NCBI RefSeq assembly: GCF_000003605.2
Contig: NW_003129855.1
Coordinates: forward strand, 219,911 to 253,313
Source: Saccoglossus kowalevskii
Lineage: Eukaryota > Hemichordata > Enteropneusta > Harrimaniidae
Direction of reading: 5' to 3'
Length of the DNA: 33,403 nt
Shown here: one piece after another, positions 1,342 to 16,099 of the stretch
Numbering within the stretch: the first letter of the stretch is position 1
How the letters are laid out: each line of letters begins with the position of its first letter
Program-made: the position numbers and the translations under genes
The notes under the pieces: generated by a model
The model's input: the letters and a program-made list of their open reading frames with translations, nothing else
Database searches by the model: none
Told to the model about the DNA's origin: nothing

Positions 1342-4300
1342 ATGGCGACTTTATTGATTGTACACACAATTTATGTGGTATTGACCAGAGTAGAACTTGT
1401 AGCTGCGGAGGAACTATTGTCAGCTGGGGTATGTATTTGTATTGTATTTCATGTATGTAGATTAGAATACTAGCCGAGAAGTTGAGAAGTGGGTAAGTCA
1501 TGCTGCATGGAGCCCAGTACCCGTGAACTCTGCTTTCAACTTCTATCAATGACACTGATTCTGACGAGATACCTTCAATAATTCATGTGAATTTAGAATA
1601 ACCTTAAGGCTGGTGATTTTGCATTAAATTGACTATTGACTACAATAAAAGAGTGTACAAAGCCATGTGTCACTTCATATGAAACGTACCTTAGGCAGCA
1701 ACATATATTGTTCCTGTTATTCATTCATTTTGCAATTAAATAAACCCAGGAGCGATAAAGGCGACAGAAAAAGTCAGAAACTGTTTTATGGTACAAGATA
1801 TAGTGAAACAAAACATGACATTGTCGCTTTTTATACCCCTAATGGCTTTGTTATGTCTTATTTGGTCTGTACTTCCGGTGATCTTTGAAACCTGAGGTCT
1901 CGACCAAACAGGTGACTGCTACATACATATAACTAGAGGGTTGCGACAGAAACACAAACATTTATATTGAAAAATTTAAACATCTTTATTGTCAAGTGCA
2001 CACAAATCTTACACACTATTTCGAAATCACGTTGGATTATTGTACAGTCCAAAGTATACACACACACCAACCAGTTTAGATACACATTGCGTGGAAAAAT
2101 ATAGAGTAGTTCAAATAGAGTTTAAAACCAGTTCATTCAGTAAAGGGTACTCACAAATCCAACAGCAGAAAACGTCGCACTTGTTGACTACTGCAACAAA
2201 AGTGGTGTGGCCGATTTTGAGAAGATGACAGTGTTCTTGGCTGACAACCAGGCACGAATAAATCAAGATGGAAACTACTAATTCGTCGCTAACCTTGTTG
2301 ACGGCGAACGTAGTTTTAAGACTCTAGAACTAGCAAAATGTCATACTACAGCTAGAAATATGTCACACTCAGGTCCGGACAAAGTGTGTTGTTGTTGTTG
2401 TTGTTGTTGTTGTAGTTGTTGTTCGAATCGCTGACGAACAAGTCGGGTGACTGTGGTCATATATGCAAAACCAGCATGACACCCTAAGTCAATGGTAATA
2501 ACTATCGTCGTGGATAGCTTGTATGGATATATACGACCACGCCACCCATAGCAATAAATTACAAAGGTATGTACAGAATATATGCCATAGTGGCAGTATC
2601 ATCTGAGATCATCTGTATGGTAATATTATTATCATGGGGGTCTCTCAAGTATGCACGGACGGCAATAATTACTCTGTCATGACTTTCACGGCGGATTCTG
2701 GCAATTATCGATAGTCTTACGAAAATATACTTTTAGCTGACCTTGAATTTGTAAAAGAATGATGGCCGCATAGGATTTCATAGTCAGTGAAGCGATTTCT
2801 TCATTTTCTGATTTTAAATCAGACCATTTGGTCATGTTGACAATCTAAGATGGCCACGAAAACCATTCTAAAGTCTTTTTTTGTTATCCGATATAACATA
2901 TGTTGACATAACTCAATATAGTTGGGCAATTGAAATATTAAGCAATAAATCTAGCTTGATATTGTGTTTTATGGTGTTTGGTTAGAACTATATTATGCGT
3001 AGGTAGGTCATTAATTTTCTGTGTTGCTTTCAAGGAATATTACTATTATTTCCAGTAAGTTAGTGCATCATAATAACATGAGGTTATTACGAGGATACCT
3101 CAAAGTATGCACGAAGACTGTACAGCGGGAGTATCGCCCGACGCACAGCGGAGGTCGATGCGACGGCGTACCGTCTGATGAATTCGCATTTCCGTTTATG
3201 TTAGGATGAAAATACTCCGTAAAATACCGCAAAATTACGGCACGCTGTAACTTATGGCGTTACGGTGACAGATGTATAATAATACGTCTTACCAAGACAA
3301 TCTTTATTATTGAAAGGTTTGCTCTCAAGAAAAATATTTTTACACTTTAGTGTACCATAGTCTTTTGTACCCGATACTTTTCTCAAGAAACGGTCAGTTT
3401 GATGTTTTTTTATTAATAATAACTTTATTCGTATTTAGGCCTCTTGCCCATGTACGCAAATAATAATAAATCATTGAAAATTTGAAAATAAAGTATAAAA
3501 GACTTAAATTACAATTTCTATTTAATTTTAAATACATAAAAACAAAATAAAGCAACACTTTCAATATCAGTCGGGTAGTCTGATGCCATTTTTTTGTGAA
3601 AATCATGCAAGGTATTTGCTGTATGGTCCTGAGAGACTGGGGGAGAAATGTTTGCCCGAATGTGTTAAGTTTTGGGCATTTTAGATGAAAATGGAACTCG
3701 TCTTCAATTTTAGACAAACACAGATCGCAAATTCTATACTCTCTGGCGATACATCTGTGTCTTCCGACTTCTATAGCTGACAACAATCACAAAAAACTGA
3801 CAAGTATATTACATTTAACACAGTTAAATCAGTAAGAGATAATTAATGTACATGAAGAGATTTTATTTGTTTCAAAAAGAGGGCGCACATCTTGACGCTC
3901 GTCATATATCTGTCTAAGTCATTACCAAATAGTTTCTGTTTAAAACCTAAACTTTTTACATCAGACAAGTGACATTGGCGCCCTCTGAGGTCATCTGTGT
4001 GACAGTATTATTGTATTTAACCACATGCTTATTGTATCTGTCATTATTTTTTTTTACATTATGGATAAATAACTCCGTTATTGTTTCCTCCATCCTAAAA
4101 ATATACTACCTGCATCGTACACTAAACTCACATGGCGAGAGTTTAAATAGAATTTACCGTACATAAATGTGTATCTTCCACAGGCTGAATGTTGTTATGA
4201 TAAACATGGAAATTATTGTTGTGAAGACTGTATTTGTAAATCTGTTTATCATCTAGGCACGGGTGAGTATGACGTCAAAATTATTTTGTTTACATTATTG

Positions 4301-5689
4301 TGTTTTAATTTATTTGGAATCAAAATTGGGCATATCATACACATGCTGGTATTGACAGCGTTTGCGTTAAAGCGTGCGGTTTTTTCAGATCCCACACCTG
4401 TGAATGAAGATACGACATATGAAGTCTTATTACGAACAGCAAAATAATTAATACGCACAATTCGAACCACCACAATTCATATCGTCAATTAATGTACGCA
4501 GACATACAACTCAATACGCTAAATAACAAAACCTAATTATACACTTCGAATTCTTACCTATCTGTGACCAGGTCATGTTTTTTATCTTTACAGAAGCATG
4601 GTTGGCCGTCATACTAGGCATACTCATATTCATAGCATTATTCGTATCTGTCATTTATTGTCTTTGCTGTAAGCACCATTCTTTCACTAATGGCAGGCCT
4701 ATAACAATATTTAACACATCTTTCAATACTTCTGAATATGGAACACTTGGAAATCCAGAACCATGCGACCCAAGTATAAACTCGGGCAAAGTGGAAACAC
4801 CTAGTCAGATCTATACTCAGCAACATGGCGAAAATCAACAGGTATTTTATGCTTATGTGTATAAACATAATGAAATTGTACTTTGTAGTTGTCATTTGTG
4901 TCAAATCACATGACACAAAACTGGCAAATTCAAGTGCAGATATGACGTTCCAAAACTTGTGTTGTGTTTTTCAACAACTGGTATTGGTCTTATTTTCGCA
5001 CATAATTATACACCGACCCATTAACATTTAACTATACACTTTACTATTTTACACTTATCTATTTACAGTACTTACATGTACAGTCACAGTTACCACCTTA
5101 CACGGTAAGATAAATTAGTGGAAATGTGCGTTTATGATAAAAGTTTATTCTCACTTCAAGTTAGTATACAGTGAATTCAACAAACAGATCACCTACACCA
5201 TTTTTCAAGTCTTATAATTAGGGAGCGTATCCACCCACAAATTCTAAAAAAATTAAATGCTCTCACGAATGAAAACACTCTTAATATATTCAGTTTATAC
5301 AATGCAATGTACAATGTCTTTCACTAATTTATGTTTTGAAAAATGACGATTGTTTGTTATGATCAATGTTATATTGCGTTTATCACTAGTTACTATGGCG
5401 GAGACATAATGCCAAATCTGAAATTTTAGCTTGGTGAAGTGAACACATTCGATAAACTGTCTAAGGAGGTTATTTCATAATTCACACAAGTAGAAAATGT
5501 ATTCTGCAAATTATTTTCTCAGCACACGGCCCTGTAACACAACAAATAATGCCATTTCATATTTCCAAGAAAATATAGCTCAATGATTATACAATTTACA
5601 TATTTATATTTTATAATTATTTGCAGTCTCAAGTAACTCCAATTGATGAAACGTGTACCATACAGAGACCAATACAACCAGCAAGCTAA
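1342..5689 (+). CDS. Gene A: Cys/Tyr-rich single-pass membrane protein, Shisa/CYYR1-like (5 exons)
   Basis: Coding exons 1342-1428, 4184-4262, 4594-4841, 5069-5104 and 5627-5689 join with phases 0,1,0,0 to give about 170 residues. All introns are GT-AG (donors gtatgt, gtgagt, gtattt, gtaaga). Exon 1 is a hydrophobic leader with an internal Arg-Val-Glu, a weaker signal peptide than in B or C. Exon 2 gives AECC, then YCCEDCIC (CC-x7-CC-x2-C-x-C). Exon 3 gives a transmembrane helix (residues ~58-77), juxtamembrane CLCC (possible palmitoylation), then YGTLGNP (Tyr104) and a tail ending ENQQ. Exon 4 gives LHVQSQLPPYT; exon 5 ends PIQPAS. The start was chosen because it aligns codon for codon in length (29) with exon 1 of gene C and shares a TCAAA(A/C)ATG context. 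It is the first of three tandem paralogues. The layout fits Shisa-like adaptors; the exact family is inference. Intron 1 carries an antisense LINE remnant. Confidence 0.72.
2388..2423. repeat. (GTT)n microsatellite in gene A intron 1
   Basis: About twelve GTT units with one interruption (GTA). Confidence 0.9.
3095..3270. other. CpG-rich patch within AT-rich intron
   Basis: An abrupt GC- and CpG-rich stretch (many CG dinucleotides between 3111 and 3270) inside otherwise AT-rich intron 1 of gene A. A 62-codon frame crosses part of it but matches nothing I recognise. It may be a remnant of a mobile element or a small unmethylated regulatory patch. Confidence 0.35.
3394..3790 (-). mobile_element. 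5'-truncated non-LTR retrotransposon (LINE) 3' end
   Basis: The minus strand encodes the last part of a LINE ORF2 from about 3786 to 3394. The conserved C-terminal block VGRHRCIAREYRICDLC, then IEDEFHFHLKCP, has a C-x2-C-x8-H-x4-C arrangement typical of CR1/RTE-like ORF2 C-termini in marine invertebrates. It ends in the familiar tail with 'CAAGAGGCCT' and an AATAAA followed by ATT/A-rich repeats. A stop lies immediately upstream in frame (3787-3789), so the reverse transcriptase is absent. It is a dead 5'-truncated insertion antisense to gene A, in its first intron. Confidence 0.8.
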
Positions 5690-6899
5690 GCCATTGTTTG
5701 GATTCACAGTGCGATTTCAAATATGTGTCCACAGTACCTAGGGACAGTACTGTGTCTATTAATATCATCACCGTGTAGATGCCCCCTGCACAAAATTGAG
5801 TTCGAAAATAACTTAACGTTTTGCACAAATTGTTAACTTACTTGTTATTCACTTCACTCTGTAAGTGTTTATACCGTATCCAAGATGTGTATGCATATGT
5901 TATATTGTTTCTTTAGTAATGTCCTGCAACTCTAAATTTACTAGCAATGTCTGAAACAAGCGAAAGGTCGTTGGTCTCTTTGACTGCGACACAAAAATCG
6001 TTCACACTTCATCGTGGATTTGTTTTCATACACTACTTTTACTTTTAATAACTGTTGTCGATTGGTGGTGTCCGTGGATTTAAGCACAATATCTATCGTC
6101 CTGTTTTCCAGCTCAAAATACAAATTAGGCCGACTGAAAAATATGAAACATCGGGTCGCGTTTTTTCTTCAATAGACTCAAATATTAAAAAACAAGCAGT
6201 AAAAAAATTGTTTCCTCTATAAATTAAGGATCCCGAAGTGGCGACTTTGAACCTCGGGTTGATCTGTATTTCTCTGACATGTTCCGAATACTATGAAGTC
6301 CATATACCTTGGCTATTTACGATAATTTTAGTTTTCACTAAAAAAAAATTCAACCGACCAACCCAATTTTTAAATGTTTCGACTTGAGGGTAACATAAGT
6401 TTTTGTTTGGCCTTATAGAAGGTTTACCAGTACATGCTTGTGTAATCATTCGGTGTATTGCTTCATACATCATCTGCTTAGCCAAGTTTCTACTTCAAAA
6501 GCGTGGCTGGTCAAAAGAAACGTGGTTCAGGCAAATCGTTGTTGAATGCTACATGTAGGTCACTATGTATGTGCATAATTCAGGTGTAATTTCTACAGGT
6601 CCACTGTTTTTCTATGGGTTGCGTAACACACGTACATCATGACAACACACAACTAGAAATGGGGCTTAAAAAGTACGGCGTTAACCGTGACCCCCCCCCC
6701 CCAAAGAAAGGTTTACTACCGTCAACATCCTCGTAGCCGTTCTTTAACTACCGGTTAGCGTTCTCATACCCGACTTATGCTGCAGGCCTAACAATGCACG
6801 ACACACTTGAATAACAATGTAGCACCATAATACGAGACGTATTCAAGTGCTTGGTTTATTTCCGTGTCAACGTAAACGTTCTTGACGCGCTGTTCAAAC
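5690..6899. other. Spacer between genes A and B
   Basis: About 1.2 kb of AT-rich sequence. It must hold the 3' UTR of A and the promoter of B. No canonical AATAAA close to the A stop was found; an ATTAAA variant occurs near 6183. A run of 12 C lies at 6691-6702. No other gene is supported. Confidence 0.5.
6691..6702. repeat. Poly-C tract
   Basis: Twelve consecutive C residues, striking in AT-rich surroundings and about 200 bases upstream of the gene B start. Confidence 0.9.
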
Positions 6900-9441
6900 A
6901 TGACTTACTCAAATCGTGTGATATTAACTACAGTAGCACTTGCAGTTGCCATGGTAATAATGCAAGTTAAGGTATGTACGTGTGTGTGTATATACGTATG
7001 TGTGTATGAGTGTTTTATAGCGAGTTAAAATGAAATTTTGCAATTAAACAAAACACTTCCTGCTACACCCTGTGTCACGCCTCTGGAATGCATTGCGTGC
7101 GATTGAGTGTAGGTAGGTAGATTCATTCAGGGGTTTCGGTTCGTTGCTGTTTACATGCAAATGGCTTTATTTTGAGTACATCAGGTGATATGTGGATGTT
7201 TGCTTTTGATCTTGCAACGAACCTTGACGGGTCTCCATATTTCCTCTTGTACGAAAGTGATGTTATATAAGTAAATTCGTTTAGATTGAGTTCGAAATGG
7301 TTCTGATTGGATTGCATTGTTTCAAGTATGCATTGATTGCACTAGATTTGGAATAGATTTGATTTTTTGAACCGGTTTGAATTGGATTCAAATTGGATTT
7401 AGATTGTTAACAATTGAAATTGGTTCGAATTTGAATTACTTTAGATTCGAAACTGGTCAGACTTAAATTTGAATTGAATTTGGCTTTGATTTCGGTTGGT
7501 TTTAATATAGTTAGATTGATGTTGGTTGGGTTTTCCGATTTGATTTGAATTATATTTTGATTAGAATTGAATTGTATTGTATTTAACGATTTAAATTAGA
7601 TTAGAATCGATCAGATTTGATTAGGATATGTTTGGATTAAATGAGATTAGATTGAGTTTGGATGATGTTTTTATTTAATTTGTTAGGGTTATATGGGTTT
7701 TAATCCGGTTTGTATTCAGTCTGGAAGAAGTTAGTATGGGTTGCTGTGGTTCTGGTAGGTTTGTGTTGGTTGGTTTATGGCATAGCAATTCAGTGACGTT
7801 AATGAAAGAGATACCGTTTTATAGTATTATATATTCATAATACTTAATCTTATTACCCGACAATTCGGACATTACGCTGAAACTAGGAACACCTGTAGCA
7901 GTACAACTTTGCTCGGAATTACTTTTTTTATTTGTTAAATATATACTATTGCATTCCATACTTTTCATAGGCTGACTGTTGCTATGACGACAATATGTAT
8001 TACTGCTGTGGATATGGTTGTGATTGTGATAATACTAATGATGACAACGGTGAGGGAGATGGTGTTGATGATATCCTAGGATGGTGTAAGTGCGATATTC
8101 AGCATTATGTGTATAATAACTCGGAGAGGTCAAATAGGTAAAGCACCAACGTTAACCATGGTAGACATGGATCTAGAGAATGGATAGATTGACCCAGAGA
8201 CTGGATGCAGGTCACCCAAGATAAATGCTATGCGAAAAAATGGCAAAACGTCTACTGTGCCACCTATGACCTTTAGTATGTAGGACTATATGCTAGCCAC
8301 TGTACAAAGCAGATTACTCCGCCGTTAATGGGGCACACATGGAGAGACTAGCAATATTACTCCCAGTGTATTATATCTCAAATGAATTGGTAAAAAGTGA
8401 GGTAGAGTGAGTGAACGAATTTGTGGAGACGATGATGAAACACATATCGCTTAATATCATGAGATTAATACTATGTGAACAATTTGTAAGTCATTTTGGA
8501 CGGAATTCAAACAATTATAATAAACATAATAAAAAAGTACATTGAGTATAGTTCAAAACTAATCTGATATAGTTGTTTATCCTCTAGTGTGAGTAAACGC
8601 ATTGCTATTTATTTCTACGTGTACAGGGATATACTTAGTCATCGCGCTAGGCCTCGGCTTACTGATCTTCATAGGTGTGTGTGTGGAGTGTTGGAAATGC
8701 CAAAGAAGATATAACAGAAGTCTCGAAAATGATAGGCGAGTCAGGGAAAGTACCGCAGTAATTGTTCCACCTCCAAATACGTCTGGATATGGAACTATGG
8801 GGAATCCTGGAGCTAACGTTGCTAGTGCCACCTCAAACACCTTGGAGGCAACTGGACCTTTATATTCTTGGCAGCATTATGGCTACAATCAACAGGTAAT
8901 TTTAAATTTACTAGAGAATCTTTGTTTCGCGAGCACATTACCTGACGTACTGTATTGGAGGCTATACTGCAATAATTTGCATGAGCTTAGCTATTCGCCA
9001 ATTTATCATACACCAAATTGAGTGTATATTGTGTTTTTTCCACGGATTTGCAGACGGATTGTTTTTTAAATAATTTCAGTTTGAGATGTTAGTGTACTGT
9101 ACATGTATTAACTTGCATTGTATTGTATTATTTTTCTACGTAGCAATACTTACACGTGCAATCACAGATACCGCCATTTACAGTAAGTTAAATAAACGTT
9201 TTTGAAATTGTTACCAAAATAGATGGGCAAAAAATACTCCACAGTATCAAGGTAGATCGAGAACAAAAGTAGCTCATGCTCTACTTACATACGTGTATCT
9301 TAAACAACATCAACTATGTGGCTAACAAAAAAGTGGAAAAGTAACTCATAGTACGTTGTTTGTGTTTATTTACAGTCACAATTGCCTGCAGTCAACGTAG
9401 TACAGCAGCAGAGCCAAGTAAATCCTGGGCAACAGTTTTGA
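6900..9441 (+). CDS. Gene B: Cys/Tyr-rich single-pass membrane protein, Shisa/CYYR1-like (5 exons)
   Basis: Coding exons 6900-6971, 7971-8085 (or 8049), 8627-8895, 9144-9182 and 9376-9441 give about 186 residues (174 with the shorter exon 2). Exon 1 encodes a clean signal-like helix (RVILTTVALAVAMVIM). Exon 2 carries ADCC, then YYCCGYGCDC (CC-x7-CC-x3-C-x-C) and an acidic Asp/Asn/Gly run. Exon 3 holds the transmembrane helix (residues ~64-82), juxtamembrane CWKC, a basic segment with QRRY and DRRVR, a PPP, and YGTMGNP at Tyr117, ending YNQQ. Exon 4 gives QSQIPPFT; exon 5 is Gln-rich and ends NPGQQF. Introns are GT-AG (donors gtatgt, gtaagt or gtgagg, gtaatt, gtaagt). It lies head to tail with A and C and is the most complete copy. 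The type I orientation and adaptor-like role are inferred from layout, not from a family match. Confidence 0.78.
7270..7780. repeat. Degenerate short-period AT-rich repeat in gene B intron 1
   Basis: About 500 bases built from diverged variants of GATTTGAATT / TTGGATT, strongly strand-asymmetric (G and T rich, few C). It looks like a decayed minisatellite or cryptically simple sequence. A shorter similar tract lies in intron 1 of gene C at about 13143-13260. Confidence 0.65.
8050..8087 (+). other. Two in-frame alternative splice donors, gene B exon 2
   Basis: A donor at 8050 (AACG|gtgagg) gives a 79-base exon, the same length as gene A exon 2. A second at 8086 (TGGT|gtaagt) gives 115 bases and matches the donor context of gene C. 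They are 36 bases apart, so the reading frame is kept. The difference is 12 residues of acidic linker just outside the membrane. Confidence 0.6.
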
Positions 9442-11863
9442 CAAGAATTCAACACTATTCCTCAATGTATGCTCTCACTATCGGCATGGGGTTGCCTGCT
9501 GTTTCTGTAATGTGTGAAGTATCAATACAATATGATAATATATACTATATTATCTATACTTGCTCATAACATTTTGCCAACGAAATCGTTATGTGTATTT
9601 TTTTCTTCGTTGGTGGTTTAAAATTTTCCATTCCAAATGATTTAAAATGAGTAAATGAATATGTATGTTTATTCCGAAAGAAATAATAAGTTAGAAAGTA
9701 AATAATAATATTGTCAAGAGCTAATAGAGAGAACAAAAAAAGTAATTGTCAATTAATCCACCAATCAATAATAATAACAAGTATTAATAGTTTCAAGTTT
9801 TAATGGGGTAAGGAATGACAGTTCGAGTTACGCATTCACGAGATATATTCTCGAAACATATCGTCACTGCATGCACTTGAGTTTGTCATTAAAACACACT
9901 TTTATTATGAAACATCATTATTTTCTAACAGTAGTATTTCAGTATTTTTGAAAAAGTGTTTGTCGAATTAATTAAAACACATTTTGATAAAAATTAATCA
10001 CATTGTAAACACAAAAGTACCATATCCTAAGCACCTAGTTGTGGACGAATTAATTGTATGTATGGCCTTACTAATCAATAAGTACAATTAGAAAGTGGCC
10101 AAGTACCCCTTGACCTGATGAGATTTGATACTGCGCATTTGGTGAGCTGTGGAGGTTGTGGTGATTCGTATCACACCTGCGAATTATGTCCTGTTCTTTG
10201 ATTAAATGTGTGTTTGGTGGGAACACTTTACATAAGAATAAAAGTCGAGTTGCTGTAACATTTGCACATGATCTTTGTGTTTTAAAGTGTTTTCTGTGTC
10301 TGAAGTTGGTATACTACTATAGAATAATAGAGGTGTGTATTCCATACCTTGGCCAGTTCAAATAAAACACACACTACACAGTGTAATAAAAAGATGTTAT
10401 TAAAGTGTATTAAGTATGTATTGGTGTGATGTGAAATTATGTTGAACGCATCAATCGACGTAAGGCTTGAGAAAGATATACAATATTTTGTGTTCCAATG
10501 TCTATTTGATACTGGTAAATACATTTCCATAATATCACGATTGTCGCGCAACCCTGCTTTTGAGATATGGATGATGGAAAATGCACTAGACTTAGCGACG
10601 GTACATGATATTTGTCTTTTTAAATCAATCAGAGTAGAAAACACTATGAATACATACCTTCCACGGGCCATGTATAGAGTGCCAGAGTCCACGTGCATGT
10701 ACTATTTTATACACAAAAGGAGCATACAGTGATAAAGTATTGTTATTGATATTTCTATATGATTACGGAGGTTTGCTGAAACATATACATTTTTACCTGA
10801 GCACGTGGTTTATTAAAATATGCTTTTAAGTCTCTACCAGCGTATACATATTATTTTCTGAAAGATGGGATAATTCAGAAATGTGTCGACACAGTCGTAC
10901 AAAAAGTGAACGCCATATTCAAGTAGTGTAATATAAATTAATAGTTTTACAGTTCGCAATTTACTGTCATCAATCAAATTATTTTTCTTCTTAAACATGG
11001 CAGTTATTTAAGTATAAAGCAATATTTATATGCCATGTTTGATCTATTTTGCATTATAGGTGTGAAGGAGGTTTAGAATAGTATGTAAATTACCAGACAC
11101 TGTGACAATCCACGTTAAATGTGCATATATCTGTACCAGTGGCACACGCGGTGGATGATTTCATTTCAATCATGAAGAATGTGTAAACCATAAAGCCTTT
11201 ATAAATCAGCTTTAAACTTACTTTCAAAGAATATTAACCTATAAATAAGATGATCGTTGTTAATAATTGCGGTCAAAAAATGCGAAGTTTGTATTGAAGA
11301 AATTATTTTCAGTTTCAGTATTCACAGCCTGCGGTGGGGTCACTACACCTCCGGTCTATCAGAACGCACGGGAAATGATATAGAGAAATGTATTTAAAAC
11401 ATTGAATGATCAAAATCAATTACTTTATCAAGCAGTAATTCAGATTATTATCTTATTTTTTAATTTATTCAGTTATTTTATCTTATTTTTTGCAGTCAAA
11501 TCAGTTAGAGATTATTGCTACATTTCCACCAATCTAATAATCAAAAACACCTCGACTGTGGTATCCTCGTAAAATTAATCATTGTAAAGTGGCATTATGT
11601 GTAATTTTAACTTTGACTAGAATATCAAAGCCCTTTAATATTACACTCATATTTTCTATTTTCCAATATTGTGTTACTAACTGTCAACACTGTAGACATT
11701 TAAATTAGATAGATGTAGCTGCTATATTGTTTATTGGCCCCACTGTATGTGAACTCCGAACAATTTGCAGCGCCCCCACCGACAAAGTGTAGTACGGTTT
11801 GAGGGAACTCGGAACAGGTCAATTATAAGTCAACTTGAAAGTCCTTTTACCCATAGTCCAAAC
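9442..11863. other. Spacer between genes B and C
   Basis: About 2.4 kb. It contains overlapping open frames on both strands at 10282-10732 with no recognisable domain (judged chance), an AATAAA at 10237-10242, and a 14-base direct repeat at 11448 and 11478. Just upstream of C is an 11-base block (11746-11756) shared with the gene A 5' flank. Confidence 0.45.
11448..11491. repeat. 14-base direct repeat
   Basis: TTATCTTATTTTTT occurs at 11448-11461 and again at 11478-11491. Confidence 0.85.
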
Positions 11864-14800
11864 ATGGCGGCTTCTATGATATTCTACACAAATAATGTGA
11901 TATTATCTACAGTAACACTTATAGTTGCGACGGTGATTGTTCAAGTAAAGGTATGTACGTTTGTGTGTATGTTATATATGTGGATTACCATGACAACCAG
12001 TTGAGGAGTTAAACTAACATCGTACTCATCATCGGTGAATAATGAATTCAAACCATATATGGTATTCAACATCAAAGGAGAGATATTGAAAGTAATCAAT
12101 AAGAATTTGGAAGATCTGTGGTCAGGTATACGCTTTTAATTGTTCATTAGGATTTTTCAATAATTTTTAATGGGGAATTACCTTGTAGTCTTCTAATGAC
12201 TCCCAAATACGGTATCAGTGGCGATATATGTACTCTTGGCAACACTTTGCAGTTAAAACAAAACCGATAAGACAGTAGAGTCACAGTGAAAGTGGCAATG
12301 CACAAACTTGTTTTTCAAAATTTGTTTTCATTTTCACGCGGAAATAGTAATGCATTATTCGATATGTACTTCCTGGTGTAGTGTGTCACGTGTTTCTATT
12401 ATATAGTGTCCATTCAGCGTCAGCGGTTTGTTGTTTATATTCAAGATGTTTGTTCGAAAACATCGAATGCAATATGAAATGTATAGCTTGGACATGTCCA
12501 GACCAGCGTGCTTTACACACCAGGCAGTAGCGTCGCCTACATAAATGTCACTTATCCAACCAATTACTAATTTAAATATATAACTGTTATTTGTCCATGT
12601 ATAACAGTTGGTAAAACCACAATATACTGCACATATCATCATAAGTGTACTGAAATTACAAATTCTGTGGGGTTATTAAAACTCATAAGGGGCATTTCAT
12701 TTTTGTCAAAACATACAGTTTTATATTCAATTTAAAGAATTTATATACACATTTTCTTAAGTTCTTCATTTGATAGATTAATTTACTAGCGCATTGTCGA
12801 CGAGCACCTTTACTTTGTCCTGGCTAATCACGATCATTTGATTATGTTGGTATACTATTCTGTGTTTTGTTTCAATTGTTCGCATAACATTTACAAATTA
12901 GAGGCAATATTACACTCCATGATTAGCTCATGATTATGTATGACTGCACTTTAGGCTTGACAAGGTTCAAAAGCCGGTCAATGACATCGAATATCAACGA
13001 ACATGTGTTTGAGCTGGAATTTGTGAATTCGCACCCAAGCGTGCACGTTGCTTCTAGTTGATTATATATTGTATTAAATATAAACTTTACAATACAGTCT
13101 CTGTCTTTAAAATTGACACGAGTCTCGACTCTGAAATGCTCGCGGACTGATATTATATATTGGATTGATTTCATTGGCTTTCAATTAAAGTTCTATTGGT
13201 TTGGAGTGAATTTAAATTTGTTTTGATTTAAATTAGTTTAGTTCAGTTTAGATTGGACTTGACAGATTCGCTGTTGTAATTAATTTTGAATAATGATAAT
13301 ATAATTAGTTATAATTCAAATTAATATATACGCAAATTAACACGATAAATCACATGATACTCATAGTAACATACAGTAAAATATTATGCATCTATTTTAT
13401 TTTCACTGCGCCATAGAATATACGTTAAGAATATAATTAGATCAATGCCAGTCTCATTTGGTAGACGTACCAAATGCAAGAATTAAGTGACGGGAGTTGT
13501 GGAAACCACGGTCGCATTGGCCATTTCTGATACATTAATATGATATTGGTGACCGTGTAGTCGCGTTCGACACGTAGAAAGGTCAACGTTCGGGCATGAT
13601 ATTAACACTGCGTCCCTTACATAGGCGTGAGATGCGCTTATTGTCAGAAATCGAAGTTACAAACGTATCTATCAGCACCAATCCCGTGATAAATAGTCTA
13701 TTTGCCATCATCGACCATGCTAGCGCTGTTTTTTCAATCCAGTGGCGGTGGCACAAGAGAGGGGCAGGGGGCGCTCGCCCCCTCGCAAAAATGTTGTCGC
13801 CCCCTAAAAATCAAGCTGAAACCCATTGTGTCAGCAAAATCCCCCCCCCCCATGCAGGAAATAGCGTTTCAGAGAGTCTAGATTTCAAAACTTTCCGACG
13901 AGCATGCCCCCGGACCCTCTAGTAAATTTACATCACTACTCAAGCCTTGTCTCGANNNNNNNNNNNNNNNNNNNNNNNNNNNNNNNNNNNNNNNNNNNNN
14001 NNNNNTCAATGACTATTAACCCTTTTCTTCAATCCGGTGAAGTGCCAGCACTATTCAAGTCTGCAATCGTCACCCCTCTACTTAAGAAGACCTCACTTGA
14101 TCGCAATACACTCAAGAACTATCGTCCTGTTTCAAACTTGCCGTTTCTCTCCAAAGTCTTGGAGAAGATTGTTGCTTCTCAACTGACGGACTATCTTACT
14201 GAAAACTCACTCCTAGAACCACTACAATTTGCATATAGAAAGTACCACAGCACTGAAACAGCTCTTCTGAAAATCCATAATGACATTTGTTCTTTTATCG
14301 ACTCTGGTAACTACGTATTACTCTCGCTCCCACTCTCTCAAACAAATTACCCCATACCATGCAGTGTTATGCAGAGCTCTTTATTGTTTAATACGTATGA
14401 ATGAATCACCCTATGCTCATGGCCATAGGGTTCGATGTAACGTGTAACGCGCCTTACGAAAGTAATACAATTATTTATACACTAATATATGAACATTTTC
14501 CTCAGGCTGACTGCTGCTATAACGTCTATGATGACACTGGATTGGATTGGTGTAAGTGTAACATTATGTACATATATTTTAGTGTAACTTTCTATAATTG
14601 GTTATCAAGTTACATTATTTGAGTATTTATGTTGGACGCACATCATGCCCCAAATGAAATATTATTCAATGAAGAATAATGATAATATAAAATAAACCTG
14701 TCTATACAAAACACTATATTTACCCGTCTAAATTGAGTTGCCTTTACAAAGGAACTCTGTAAACCGAATATGCACAAAAGACTAGACGTTATACATAAAT

Positions 14801-16099
14801 ATATAATACTATAGTGTAAGTAAAAAGGAACATCGTGTGAATATATCGCTATATCGCATATTTAAATAATAATACATTGAACAAATTGAAACGTTGCTTT
14901 TGGTCAAAACAAATTCCACAACATAGCCACACGTTTAGACACACAAGTAGTGCATAATTTAATAATTGGTAATTGTAATTAATTCTAATTATTGTCGCTT
15001 CTAAAACTGTGATTGGAATGTACACTATATGTGCACTGACATATTTGATATGTGTTGTTCAGGGCAATGGTTTCTCATCGCTTTATGTGCATTTCTGTTT
15101 ATGATACTATGGGTGTGGGCGTGTTATCGACGATGCCAAGCTATAGACAGTTACCACCAATCACGAGAAGATGCCAGGCGGCGCATAGTAATAATTCAAT
15201 CTTGTGATTCGTCTGATTATGGAACAATTGGCAATCCAGAGCAATACGATCCTAGCAACAGCTCCGGAATAGTAGAAACACCTGGACATATCTATACTCA
15301 GCCATACGGTCACAACCAACAGGTATTTAAAAAAACTCACATCTATATTGTTATTTATGTTGTTTGCTTGTTATTTGCAATTACACGTAAAGCTGTAATT
15401 TCAGATTTCGATGCATATCAAAACTAGTGTGTGCGTTGAATGAAGACACACATATCTAATTCAAATGCAGATATACATCTAACCTTTAACTAAAGCGAAA
15501 TAGTTTCAGTTGTGTAATTTACATCATCATTTCTTATTTGCATTTTATTATACACTTTCATCCAAGTTAAACATATATAATATATGTCAGGATGTTTGTA
15601 TATTTTGGTAGTCATGTGTCAATATTTGTATTTTCATTTTATGTTTTCATTTGTGACACAATGCAAACATGGCTGTTTTTTAGTTTGTTTGGATACATTT
15701 ACATGTATATATATATATAAGTATTGTTTGTACTATATTATATTGCTTGGTATTACAATTTACTTTGCATTTATTCTGCATGTCCACCTGTATTCGTAGC
15801 AGCACCTGCATGTGCAGTCACAGCTTCCAGCATACACGGTAAGCTAAGTAACGTCTGCCCTCAGTGTTTAAATGCATGACAACTTTAACGTTACATTTAC
15901 ATTCAGTAATTCGAGTACACCAACGGCCATTAGTAACGCGGGAAAGGTAGAATGCCTTTTAACAAACAACAATGGCCACTCGTTACGTCACAGACAATTA
16001 CAATGAAACAGTGATAACTGACAGTAGACGAGTAGTTTTGCATATATTTATGTGTTTAATTAATATTCACAGACTCAAGTACCTACATATGATCGATGA
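11864..16099 (+). CDS. Gene C: single-pass membrane protein, paralogue of A and B with reduced Cys exon (5 exons)
   Basis: Coding exons 11864-11950, 14506-14551, 15063-15322, 15800-15838 (or from 15803) and 16073-16099 give about 152 residues. Exon 1 ends with a signal-like helix (NVILSTVTLIVATVIVQVK) very close to gene B. Exon 2 is only 46 bases: ADCCYNVYDDTGLDW, with just one CC pair. Exon 3 gives the transmembrane helix (residues ~46-64), juxtamembrane CYRRC, an Arg-rich segment and YGTIGNP at Tyr97, ending HNQQ; its second half is closest to gene A. Exon 4 gives LHVQSQLPAYT. Exon 5 is short (TQVPTYDR, stop). Donors are gtatgt, gtaagt, gtattt, gtaagc. ATG 11864 is chosen over upstream non-ATG extension because it aligns with exon 1 of A. 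Intron 1 contains transposon debris and an assembly gap, so an exon hidden in the gap cannot be excluded. Confidence 0.7.
13740..13955. mobile_element. hAT-like DNA transposon terminus or MITE fragment
   Basis: It begins CAGTGGCGG, continues into G-rich then C-rich blocks (GGGGGCGCTCGCCCCC around 13767-13782), then 'CGCCCCCTAAAAATCAAG', and later 'GAGCATGCCCCCGGACCC'. This reads as the terminal sequence of hAT-like elements common in marine invertebrate genomes. The stretch runs into the assembly gap, so the other end is not seen. The assignment is from memory of the terminal pattern, not a database match. Confidence 0.55.
13956..14005. other. Assembly gap (50 N)
   Basis: Exactly 50 N, a typical placeholder or estimated-size gap, located between a hAT-like end and a LINE fragment. 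The true length is unknown. Confidence 0.98.
14006..14323 (+). mobile_element. LINE reverse-transcriptase fragment (CR1/L2/Jockey-like)
   Basis: Open frame of 106 codons with the early reverse-transcriptase blocks: AIVTPLLKK, LKNYRPVSNLPFLSKVLEKIV, LLEPLQFAYRKYHSTETALL and a final GNYVLL. It breaks off where the AFD-containing block should start; the catalytic YADD region is absent. The 5' part is lost in the assembly gap. It is a dead fragment in intron 1 of gene C, about 180 bases before exon 2. It comes from a different part of ORF2 than the antisense piece in gene A, so they cannot be compared directly. Confidence 0.85.
15706..15719. repeat. (TA)n run in gene C intron 3
   Basis: Seven TA units. 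Confidence 0.85.
15797..15803 (+). other. Tandem NAGNAG-type splice acceptor, gene C exon 4
   Basis: The sequence TAGCAG offers two acceptors three bases apart. Using the first (exon from 15800) gives an extra Gln, as in gene B exon 4 (Gln-Tyr-Leu-His). Using the second (from 15803) matches gene A, which starts directly with Tyr-Leu-His. Confidence 0.5.

Follow-up and report, generated by a model that had tools for sequence, protein, structure and literature searches.

The window analyzed here (the whole stretch of 33,403 nucleotides) contains three head-to-tail genes, rebuilt from the sequence, with five exons per copy and 15 exons in total (Table 1). Their coding spans are 1342 to 5689 (copy 1), 6900 to 9441 (copy 2), and 11864 to 16099 (copy 3), such that the array is delimited by a first ATG at 1342 and a last stop codon ending at 16099, the same limits as were given in an earlier note on this DNA. 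All 12 introns are of the GT-AG type, with phases 0, 1, 0, and 0 in every copy, and each copy is read in one uninterrupted frame, yielding predicted proteins of 170, 186, and 152 amino acids, respectively. These models bear out the note's claim of three tandem five-exon genes with a common exon order and common phases, as well as its statement that no exon exceeds 270 bases, the longest measuring 269. A reverse-transcriptase fragment adjoining an assembly gap lies in intron 1 of copy 3.

Table 1. Exons of the three-gene array, in positions of the window
Feature	Position	Strand	Evidence
Copy 1 exon 1, probable signal peptide, 29 codons	1342..1428	+	gene model, DNA match, hydropathy
Copy 1 exon 2, six-Cys segment CCx7CCx2CxC	4184..4262	+	gene model, simulated windows
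Copy 1 exon 3, predicted TM helix and tail including YGTL	4594..4841	+	gene model, simulated windows, hydropathy
Copy 1 exon 4, YLHVQSQLPPYT (LPxY)	5069..5104	+	gene model, simulated windows, tail-exon pattern
Copy 1 exon 5 and stop	5627..5689	+	gene model, three-copy profile
Copy 2 exon 1, probable signal peptide	6900..6971	+	gene model, profile, simulated windows
Copy 2 exon 2, CCx7CCx3CxC and Asp/Asn/Gly-rich stretch	7971..8085	+	gene model, simulated windows
Copy 2 exon 3, predicted TM helix and tail including YGTM	8627..8895	+	gene model, simulated windows, hydropathy
Copy 2 exon 4, QYLHVQSQIPPFT	9144..9182	+	gene model, simulated windows, tail-exon pattern
Copy 2 exon 5 and stop	9376..9441	+	gene model, three-copy profile
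Copy 3 exon 1, probable signal peptide	11864..11950	+	gene model, profile, simulated windows
Copy 3 exon 2, shortened, CC alone kept (ADCCYNVYDDTGLDW)	14506..14551	+	gene model, DNA match; protein score within chance
Copy 3 exon 3, predicted TM helix and tail including YGTI	15063..15322	+	gene model, simulated windows, hydropathy
Copy 3 exon 4, QHLHVQSQLPAYT (LPxY)	15800..15838	+	gene model, simulated windows, tail-exon pattern
Copy 3 exon 5, TQVPTYDR and stop	16073..16099	+	position, splice site, phase only

The chance baseline for matches between copies consisted of 200 first-order Markov windows and covered exons 1 to 4, other than exon 1 of copy 1. Within that scope, the cross-copy matches exceeded all simulated windows and a chance origin was ruled out, with exon 2 of copy 3 as the only exception. 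Exon 3 of copy 1 scored 67.4 bits to copy 3 and 44.7 bits to copy 2 (best by chance, 27.7), its exon 4 scored 28.1 and 25.4 bits to the other copies (chance, 20.4), and its exon 2 scored 26.6 bits to copy 2 (chance, 23.5) and 21.9 bits, within the chance range, to copy 3; exon 1 of copy 2 scored 31.2 bits to copy 3 (chance, 20.4). For exon 2 of copy 3, the call is based on agreement in 14 of 15 bases with the start of copy 2 exon 2 (the runner-up in that intron reaches 11 of 15), on a 29-base DNA match at that place (86%; E = 0.016), and further on splice sites and phase. Exon 1 of copy 1 had no counterpart in the other first exons among the 80 matches listed and was called from an 86-base DNA match to copy 2 (71%; E = 0.002), hydropathy, and its donor. 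Finally, a three-copy profile recovered exon 5 of copy 1 (E = 0.0023) and of copy 2 (E = 0.0006), two stretches that form part of the profile, and listed no match for exon 5 of copy 3.

At E <0.02, DNA similarity between the copies was confined to exons and a few adjoining bases, apart from one 390-base self-overlap of the queried flanks; weaker short matches (E above 0.02) also occurred outside exons. Since the introns share no DNA at E <0.02 and direct repeats of ≥40 bases are absent, we rejected a recent segmental duplication. The copies are best read as probable paralogues, diverged tandem duplicates that would each encode a small single-pass membrane protein.

No further convincing copy was found in the 572-Mb genome by three protein searches, run exon by exon and giving counts that are lower bounds, and a tail-exon pattern. 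Because copies 2 and 3 matched the array alone and copy 1 added just two doubtful loci, L024 (E = 0.028) and L025 (E = 0.10), we rejected a larger expansion. The reading frame of L024, judged by eye, looks like that of an EGF-type receptor. The tail of L025 aligns with that of copy 1 without gaps (13 of 24 residues; score, 68, reached by 1 of 2,000 shuffles), and its scores against copies 2 and 3 were not outstanding, being reached by 221 and 305 of 2,000 shuffles; since L025 was picked out of a whole genome and is unremarkable against copies 2 and 3, we regard it as a lead only.

Each predicted protein has two hydropathy peaks. Copies 1 and 2 have six ectodomain cysteines in the order CC*CC*C*C; four of these are gone from copy 3, which keeps CC alone in an exon of about 15 residues. 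At its outer edge, the putative transmembrane (TM) helix has WWIY in copy 2, WWQWF in copy 3, and a lone W in copy 1, and all three proteins carry cysteines at or just inside its inner end. The tails are rich in Gln, Pro, Ser, and Thr and contain YGT[LMI] in all three proteins, together with one [LI]P[PA][YF] motif per protein, which is LPxY except in copy 2, where it reads IPPF. The layout proposed in the earlier note was recovered as an N-terminal hydrophobic segment, a short exon 2, one putative TM helix, and a tail of this composition, and the note's label of a Cys exon suits copies 1 and 2 but not copy 3, where only two cysteines are left.

The earlier note had also proposed a Shisa-like/CYYR1-like reading. 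A likeness in layout and tail motifs stands; membership was not supported. In a Pfam search (E limit of 10, with HMMER filters discarding most matches above about 0.1), Shisa_N (PF13908) was not listed for any of the three proteins, and neither the CYYR1 (PF10873) nor the WBP-1 (PF11669) profile matched the array. Across the same genome, Shisa_N found 15 places (12 over the cutoff, none in the array), including an eight-gene tandem cluster; the CYYR1 and WBP-1 profiles found three and two places, respectively, all below the cutoff, none in the array, and both profiles lacking a positive control there, the best CYYR1 place (27.4 bits versus a cutoff of 31) lying in that Shisa cluster. The top Pfam matches of the array proteins (E = 0.011 to 0.22, all under their cutoffs) were to viral, transport, and other membrane families. 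An NCBIfam search gave two families (best E = 0.029) and no adaptor family, a PDB profile search two matches only (E = 2.1 and 3), and an Rfam search none; a pattern search of viral contigs gave 106 stretches, none confirmed. As a side observation, a mitochondrial contig carries AAA where Lys is read, and its COX1, COX2, and ND1 genes contain no AGG. Intron phases around the Cys exon also differ from those of Shisa genes in this genome, in which Cys and TM exons are likewise separate: among eight loci examined of the 12 over the cutoff, the donor of the Cys exon was in phase 2 in all six in which one was found (two gave none), and a phase 1 acceptor candidate was present in seven (four of these also offer other phases; the eighth locus has none), i.e., phases 1/2 versus 0/1 in the array.

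In layout, tail motifs, and inner-edge cysteines, the array nonetheless resembles the Shisa-like adaptor style; the tandem cluster in the same genome is a further likeness to Shisa. CYYR1 shares with the predicted proteins a signal peptide, a Cys-rich segment, one TM helix, a tail with WW-ligand motifs, and small size (at least 154 residues, K154 having been mutated in PMC11399591). WBP1/WBP1L (PMC6991692) and VOPP1, the last grouped with WBP1-type proteins (PMC5578492, PMC6125347, and PMC11399591), share a short luminal Cys peptide, a single TM helix, an [L/P]PXY tail, and palmitoylation, which is putative in the array. However, the array order CC*CC*C*C sets it apart from these families and from the zebrafish Shisa pattern C*C*CC*C*CC*C (PMC10531659), and its one variant motif per protein contrasts with three PPxY motifs in CYYR1 (PMC11399591) and three [L/P]PXY motifs in WBP1L (PMC6991692). 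Commissureless and PRRG proteins are likewise small TM proteins whose tails carry LPxY or PPxY (PMC5578492), but Commissureless is described there as having no ectodomain cysteines, and no Gla domain was listed for the array proteins in the Pfam search.

On these grounds (profiles, Cys order, and, for Shisa, phases), we rejected membership in the Shisa, CYYR1, or WBP-1 families. It is conceivable, if rather doubtful, that the array represents true but very divergent STMC6 members (the group of Shisa-like proteins, CYYR1, WBP1, VOPP1, and TMEM92) with rearranged cysteines and altered phases. As judged by hydropathy, the STMC6 part order (signal peptide, N-terminal Cys segment, one TM helix, and tail) is present, the Cys segment is complete in two of three copies, and the aromatic TM starts of copies 2 and 3 are of a kind described as typical of STMC6 (PMC6125347 and PMC5578492); moreover, TMEM207, which has no Cys domain, is described as still related (PMC6125347). 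Another STMC6 trait is a proline-rich tail with [L/P]PxY, for which the array offers its one LPxY per protein (IPPF in copy 2) in a tail where Pro is accompanied by Gln, Ser, and Thr. Scotin is among the proteins described as STMC6 (PMC5037681). Against membership speak the missing profile matches, the phases (compared with Shisa genes only), and an STMC6 order, reported second-hand in passages of PMC5578492 and PMC6991692, of C*C*CC*CC, from which both the order in copies 1 and 2 and the CC of copy 3 depart.

The clearest sign of purifying selection comes from the cytoplasmic tail (copy 1 residues 102 to 152), with dN/dS values of 0.28, 0.21, and 0.22 and Fisher P values of <3e-4 in all three pairs. 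The corresponding values were 1.01, 0.56, and 0.42 for the TM part (P = 1.0, 0.16, and 0.04) and 2.6, 1.3, and 0.74 for exon 1 (P = 0.10, 0.80, and 0.54). Exon 2 departed from neutrality in two of three pairs (P = 0.014 and 0.0004, over 12 and 15 aligned codons); therefore, a restriction of selection to the tail is not proven. Over the whole gene, purifying selection, as expected from the earlier note, was found for pairs 1-3 and 2-3 but not for pair 1-2 (dN/dS = 0.74; P = 0.13), a value that by itself does not reject neutrality.

The strong variation in ectodomain and TM part, with an Asp/Asn/Gly-rich insertion in copy 2 and a shortened exon 2 in copy 3, might instead point to a fast-evolving surface family in which the ectodomain recognizes ligands or pathogens and the tail has a generic sorting role; we consider this improbable, given that only three copies were found in the genome, that no excess of replacement changes was significant in the four segments tested (the top ratio being that of exon 1), and that so little ectodomain is encoded by copy 3 exon 2. 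Decay into pseudogenes, of copy 3 first, would fit its lost cysteines and the reverse-transcriptase fragment by the gap but is very unlikely, with a frame open over five exons, every splice site intact, and tail constraint relative to each of the other two copies (dN/dS = 0.21 and 0.22).

Since the tails are more strictly conserved than the other parts, the proteins look like Shisa-style ubiquitin-ligase adaptors. The best explanation, to which we assign a probability of roughly 0.5 jointly with the paralogy proposed above, is a tail-driven WW-ligand adaptor recruiting a NEDD4-type ligase. From the predicted features we infer that the signal peptide would probably be cleaved immediately ahead of the conserved [ED]CC, leaving a tiny, probably disulfide-bonded peptide outside or in the lumen and one helix across the membrane. 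The tail would be the working part: YGT[LMI] might direct the protein through the endocytic pathway, and the [LI]P[PA][YF]T site might be bound by a protein with WW domains, a NEDD4-type ubiquitin ligase being the likeliest, whereupon membrane cargo or the ligase itself would be ubiquitinated and degraded. Such behavior has precedents: CYYR1 binds WWP1 via its PPxY motifs and delivers it to late endosomes and to degradation in lysosomes (PMC11399591), and the palmitoylated WBP1L binds NEDD4-family ligases, carries [L/P]PXY motifs, and regulates CXCR4 (PMC6991692). The first WW domain of WWOX accepts LPXY and LPXF besides PPXY (PMC6125347). Counted against the adaptor mechanism are the lack of an adaptor-family match, the single variant WW site per protein, with the IPPF of copy 2 falling outside [LP]Px[YF], and the short, common nature of YxxPhi motifs; the whole-gene value of pair 1-2 and the departure of exon 2 from neutrality, given above, count against it as well.

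More tentatively, we speculate that these are independently evolved, lineage-restricted single-pass WW-ligand adaptors whose layout came to resemble that of Shisa-like proteins and CYYR1 by convergence, with selection having moved to the tail and one paralogue shedding its disulfide ectodomain. If so, ligase-recruiting membrane adaptors would arise repeatedly from one simple kit, and three paralogues, one nearly without an ectodomain, would allow a direct test of whether an ectodomain is needed; otherwise, this is an ordinary finding, a tandem family of few genes in a single animal genome. Either way, single-frame gene finding and profile libraries miss small, multi-exon adaptor genes like these. 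The literature searched showed no invertebrate family like the array; on invertebrate Shisa, it reports the Shisa Pfam term as over-represented in mussel gills (PMC5549309) and CG15760 as a candidate in Drosophila (PMC5578492).

The three five-exon genes with intron phases 0,1,0,0 proposed in the earlier note were borne out: all 12 introns of the array are GT-AG, the phases recur in copies 1, 2, and 3, and the predicted products are 170, 186, and 152 amino acids long, respectively, with 36% (copy 2) and 45% (copy 3) identity to copy 1. In a chance test with 200 simulated windows, which covered copy 1 exons 2, 3, and 4 as well as copy 2 exon 1, cross-copy matches scored 67.4 and 44.7 bits versus a simulated best of 27.7 for copy 1 exon 3, 28.1 and 25.4 versus 20.4 for exon 4, 26.6 and 21.9 versus 23.5 for exon 2, and 31.2 versus 20.4 for copy 2 exon 1. 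Among the exons simulated, only copy 3 exon 2 (21.9 bits) fell inside the chance range; it is backed beyond its protein score, because its start matched at 14 of 15 bases (runner-up in that intron, 11) and because of a 29-base DNA match. LHVQSQxP, a degenerate pattern built on the tail exons of the three copies, is present three times in the 572-Mb genome, always inside the array, with no occurrence on the reverse strand or in a reversed control. We conclude that the array represents real gene structures and a real small family.

Coordinates of array exons and of related or neighboring features
Feature	Location	Strand	Basis or members
Copy 1 exons	1342-1428, 4184-4262, 4594-4841, 5069-5104, 5627-5689		Sequence reading, splice-site test
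Copy 2 exons	6900-6971, 7971-8085, 8627-8895, 9144-9182, 9376-9441		Sequence reading, splice-site test
Copy 3 exons	11864-11950, 14506-14551, 15063-15322, 15800-15838, 16073-16099		Sequence reading, splice-site test
KAP_NTPase frame	L009 2906-4723	-	Pfam match
KAP_NTPase frame	L016 2249-4021	-	Pfam match
Long frame upstream of array, similar in look to KAP_NTPase frames	L017 8108-9931	+	Without Pfam match
Shisa cluster places	C286:673155-717985	one strand	L028, L029, L030, L032, L033, and three places without locus

Between copies 2 and 3, window 11496-11537 (SNQLEIIATFPPI and a stop, preceded by a polypyrimidine-AG) is a possible terminal exon that may be either a relic or an alternative to exon 5. 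In the same interval, CGGCGDSYHTCELC, a short open segment at ~10120-10202, has two CxxC pairs. Intron 1 of copy 3 holds a reverse-transcriptase fragment (14006-14311; RVT_1, E 1.9e-7), adjoined by a 50-N assembly gap (13956-14005).

Each protein has two hydrophobic peaks in hydropathy, one N-terminal and one internal, and cysteines located either at the inner end of the transmembrane helix or immediately inside it. The ectodomain carries six cysteines in copies 1 (CCx7CCx2CxC) and 2 (CCx7CCx3CxC) and two in copy 3. Exon 4 encodes LPPYT, IPPFT, and LPAYT, and the tail contains YGTL, YGTM, and YGTI (copies 1, 2, and 3, respectively). YxxPhi motifs direct endocytic sorting.

The earlier note would have fallen had the predicted exons lacked purifying selection between copies; such selection was found, though unevenly across segments and pairs. 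For pairs 1-2, 1-3, and 2-3, whole-gene dN/dS (Nei-Gojobori count) was 0.74, 0.51, and 0.33 (Fisher P = 0.13, 0.0016, and 2e-7, uncorrected across 15 tests), with Biopython NG86 components (dN/dS) of 0.58/0.93, 0.42/0.93, and 0.37/1.36. With segment bounds set after the alignment was viewed and P values likewise uncorrected, constraint was clearest in the tail, taken as residues 102-152 of copy 1 (0.28, 0.21, and 0.22; every P < 3e-4); the transmembrane part (1.01, 0.56, and 0.42; P = 1.0, 0.16, and 0.04) departed from neutrality, weakly, only in pair 2-3, exon 2 did so in pairs 1-3 (P = 0.014, 12 aligned codons) and 2-3 (P = 0.0004, 15 aligned codons) but not in pair 1-2 (0.82, P = 0.57, 26 codons), and exon 1 did so in none of the three pairs (2.6, 1.3, and 0.74; P = 0.10, 0.80, and 0.54).

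Published accounts describe CYYR1 PPxY motifs that recruit WWP1 to late endosomes, causing its degradation (PMC11399591), WBP1L binding to NEDD4-family ligases and increased surface CXCR4 upon WBP1L loss (PMC6991692), and, for WWOX, LPxY and LPxF as further WW ligands (PMC6125347). A putative WW-ligand-type site in the tail would give the array proteins a tail-borne adaptor role, which we favor because the site-bearing tail is strictly conserved while other parts of the three proteins drifted more; putative tail-borne adaptors are our best guess from sequence.

The likeness to Shisa-like/CYYR1-like adaptors suggested earlier stood as regards adaptor-like look but not as regards filing under Shisa. 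The Shisa_N profile found 15 places genome-wide, 12 over the cut-off, eight of these in tandem within 45 kb of contig C286; the animal therefore has Shisa genes, including a tandem cluster, and the profile works. A simple motif scan at eight loci among the 12 placed the donor of the Shisa Cys exon in phase 2 at all six loci where one was found (two gave none), with a phase-1 acceptor candidate upstream at seven of eight (four also offer other phases), whereas the introns on either side of the array's Cys exon are in phases 0 and 1. Since these phases differ and the cysteine order is unlike the C*C*CC*CC that PMC5578492 gives for STMC6, the superfamily including Shisa-like proteins and CYYR1, both features argue against Shisa, and we would not file the array there. 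Profiles for CYYR1 (three places) and WBP-1 (two), each without a positive control here, gave genome-wide only below-cut-off places, none in the array; no Pfam family reached the cut-off for the three proteins, the weak matches listed being non-adaptor families. By the sequence tests run, the array appears to lie outside the named families, as a modest new variant of adaptor-like proteins rather than a new kind.

Genome-wide, all places matched by copies 2 (seven) and 3 (five) lie in the array, as do six of eight for copy 1, the others being doubtful (E 0.028 and 0.10); tblastn of the window plus 50 kb of flanks (C2157:189911-219910, 253314-273313) gave no further convincing copy. One doubtful match, L025 (C2731:563719-563997, minus), encodes a Cys-rich membrane protein of a different sort, although its tail, YTEMHGDNQGYLVSQQQPPP, is similar to YTQQHGENQQYLHVQSQLPP of copy 1. 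By eye, window ~3076-3290 in intron 1 of copy 1 (TCAAAGTATGCACGAAGAC ... ACTTATGGCGTTACGGTGACA) recurs at L025 ~345-515; this shared stretch is probably a repeat dispersed in the genome and may be a small transposon.

Upstream of the array lie two KAP-type P-loop genes (L009 and L016). Downstream lies a Ras-family gene, which we take to be RASD1/Dexras-like, with a first exon from 22523 (to ~22805) and a later exon (L014 5802-6368) ~36 kb apart. In a mitochondrial locus, L042 (contig C4830), AGG is absent from ND1, COX2, and COX1, AAA stands at Lys positions, and ND1 and COX2, which share a strand, flank COX1, which is on the opposite one.
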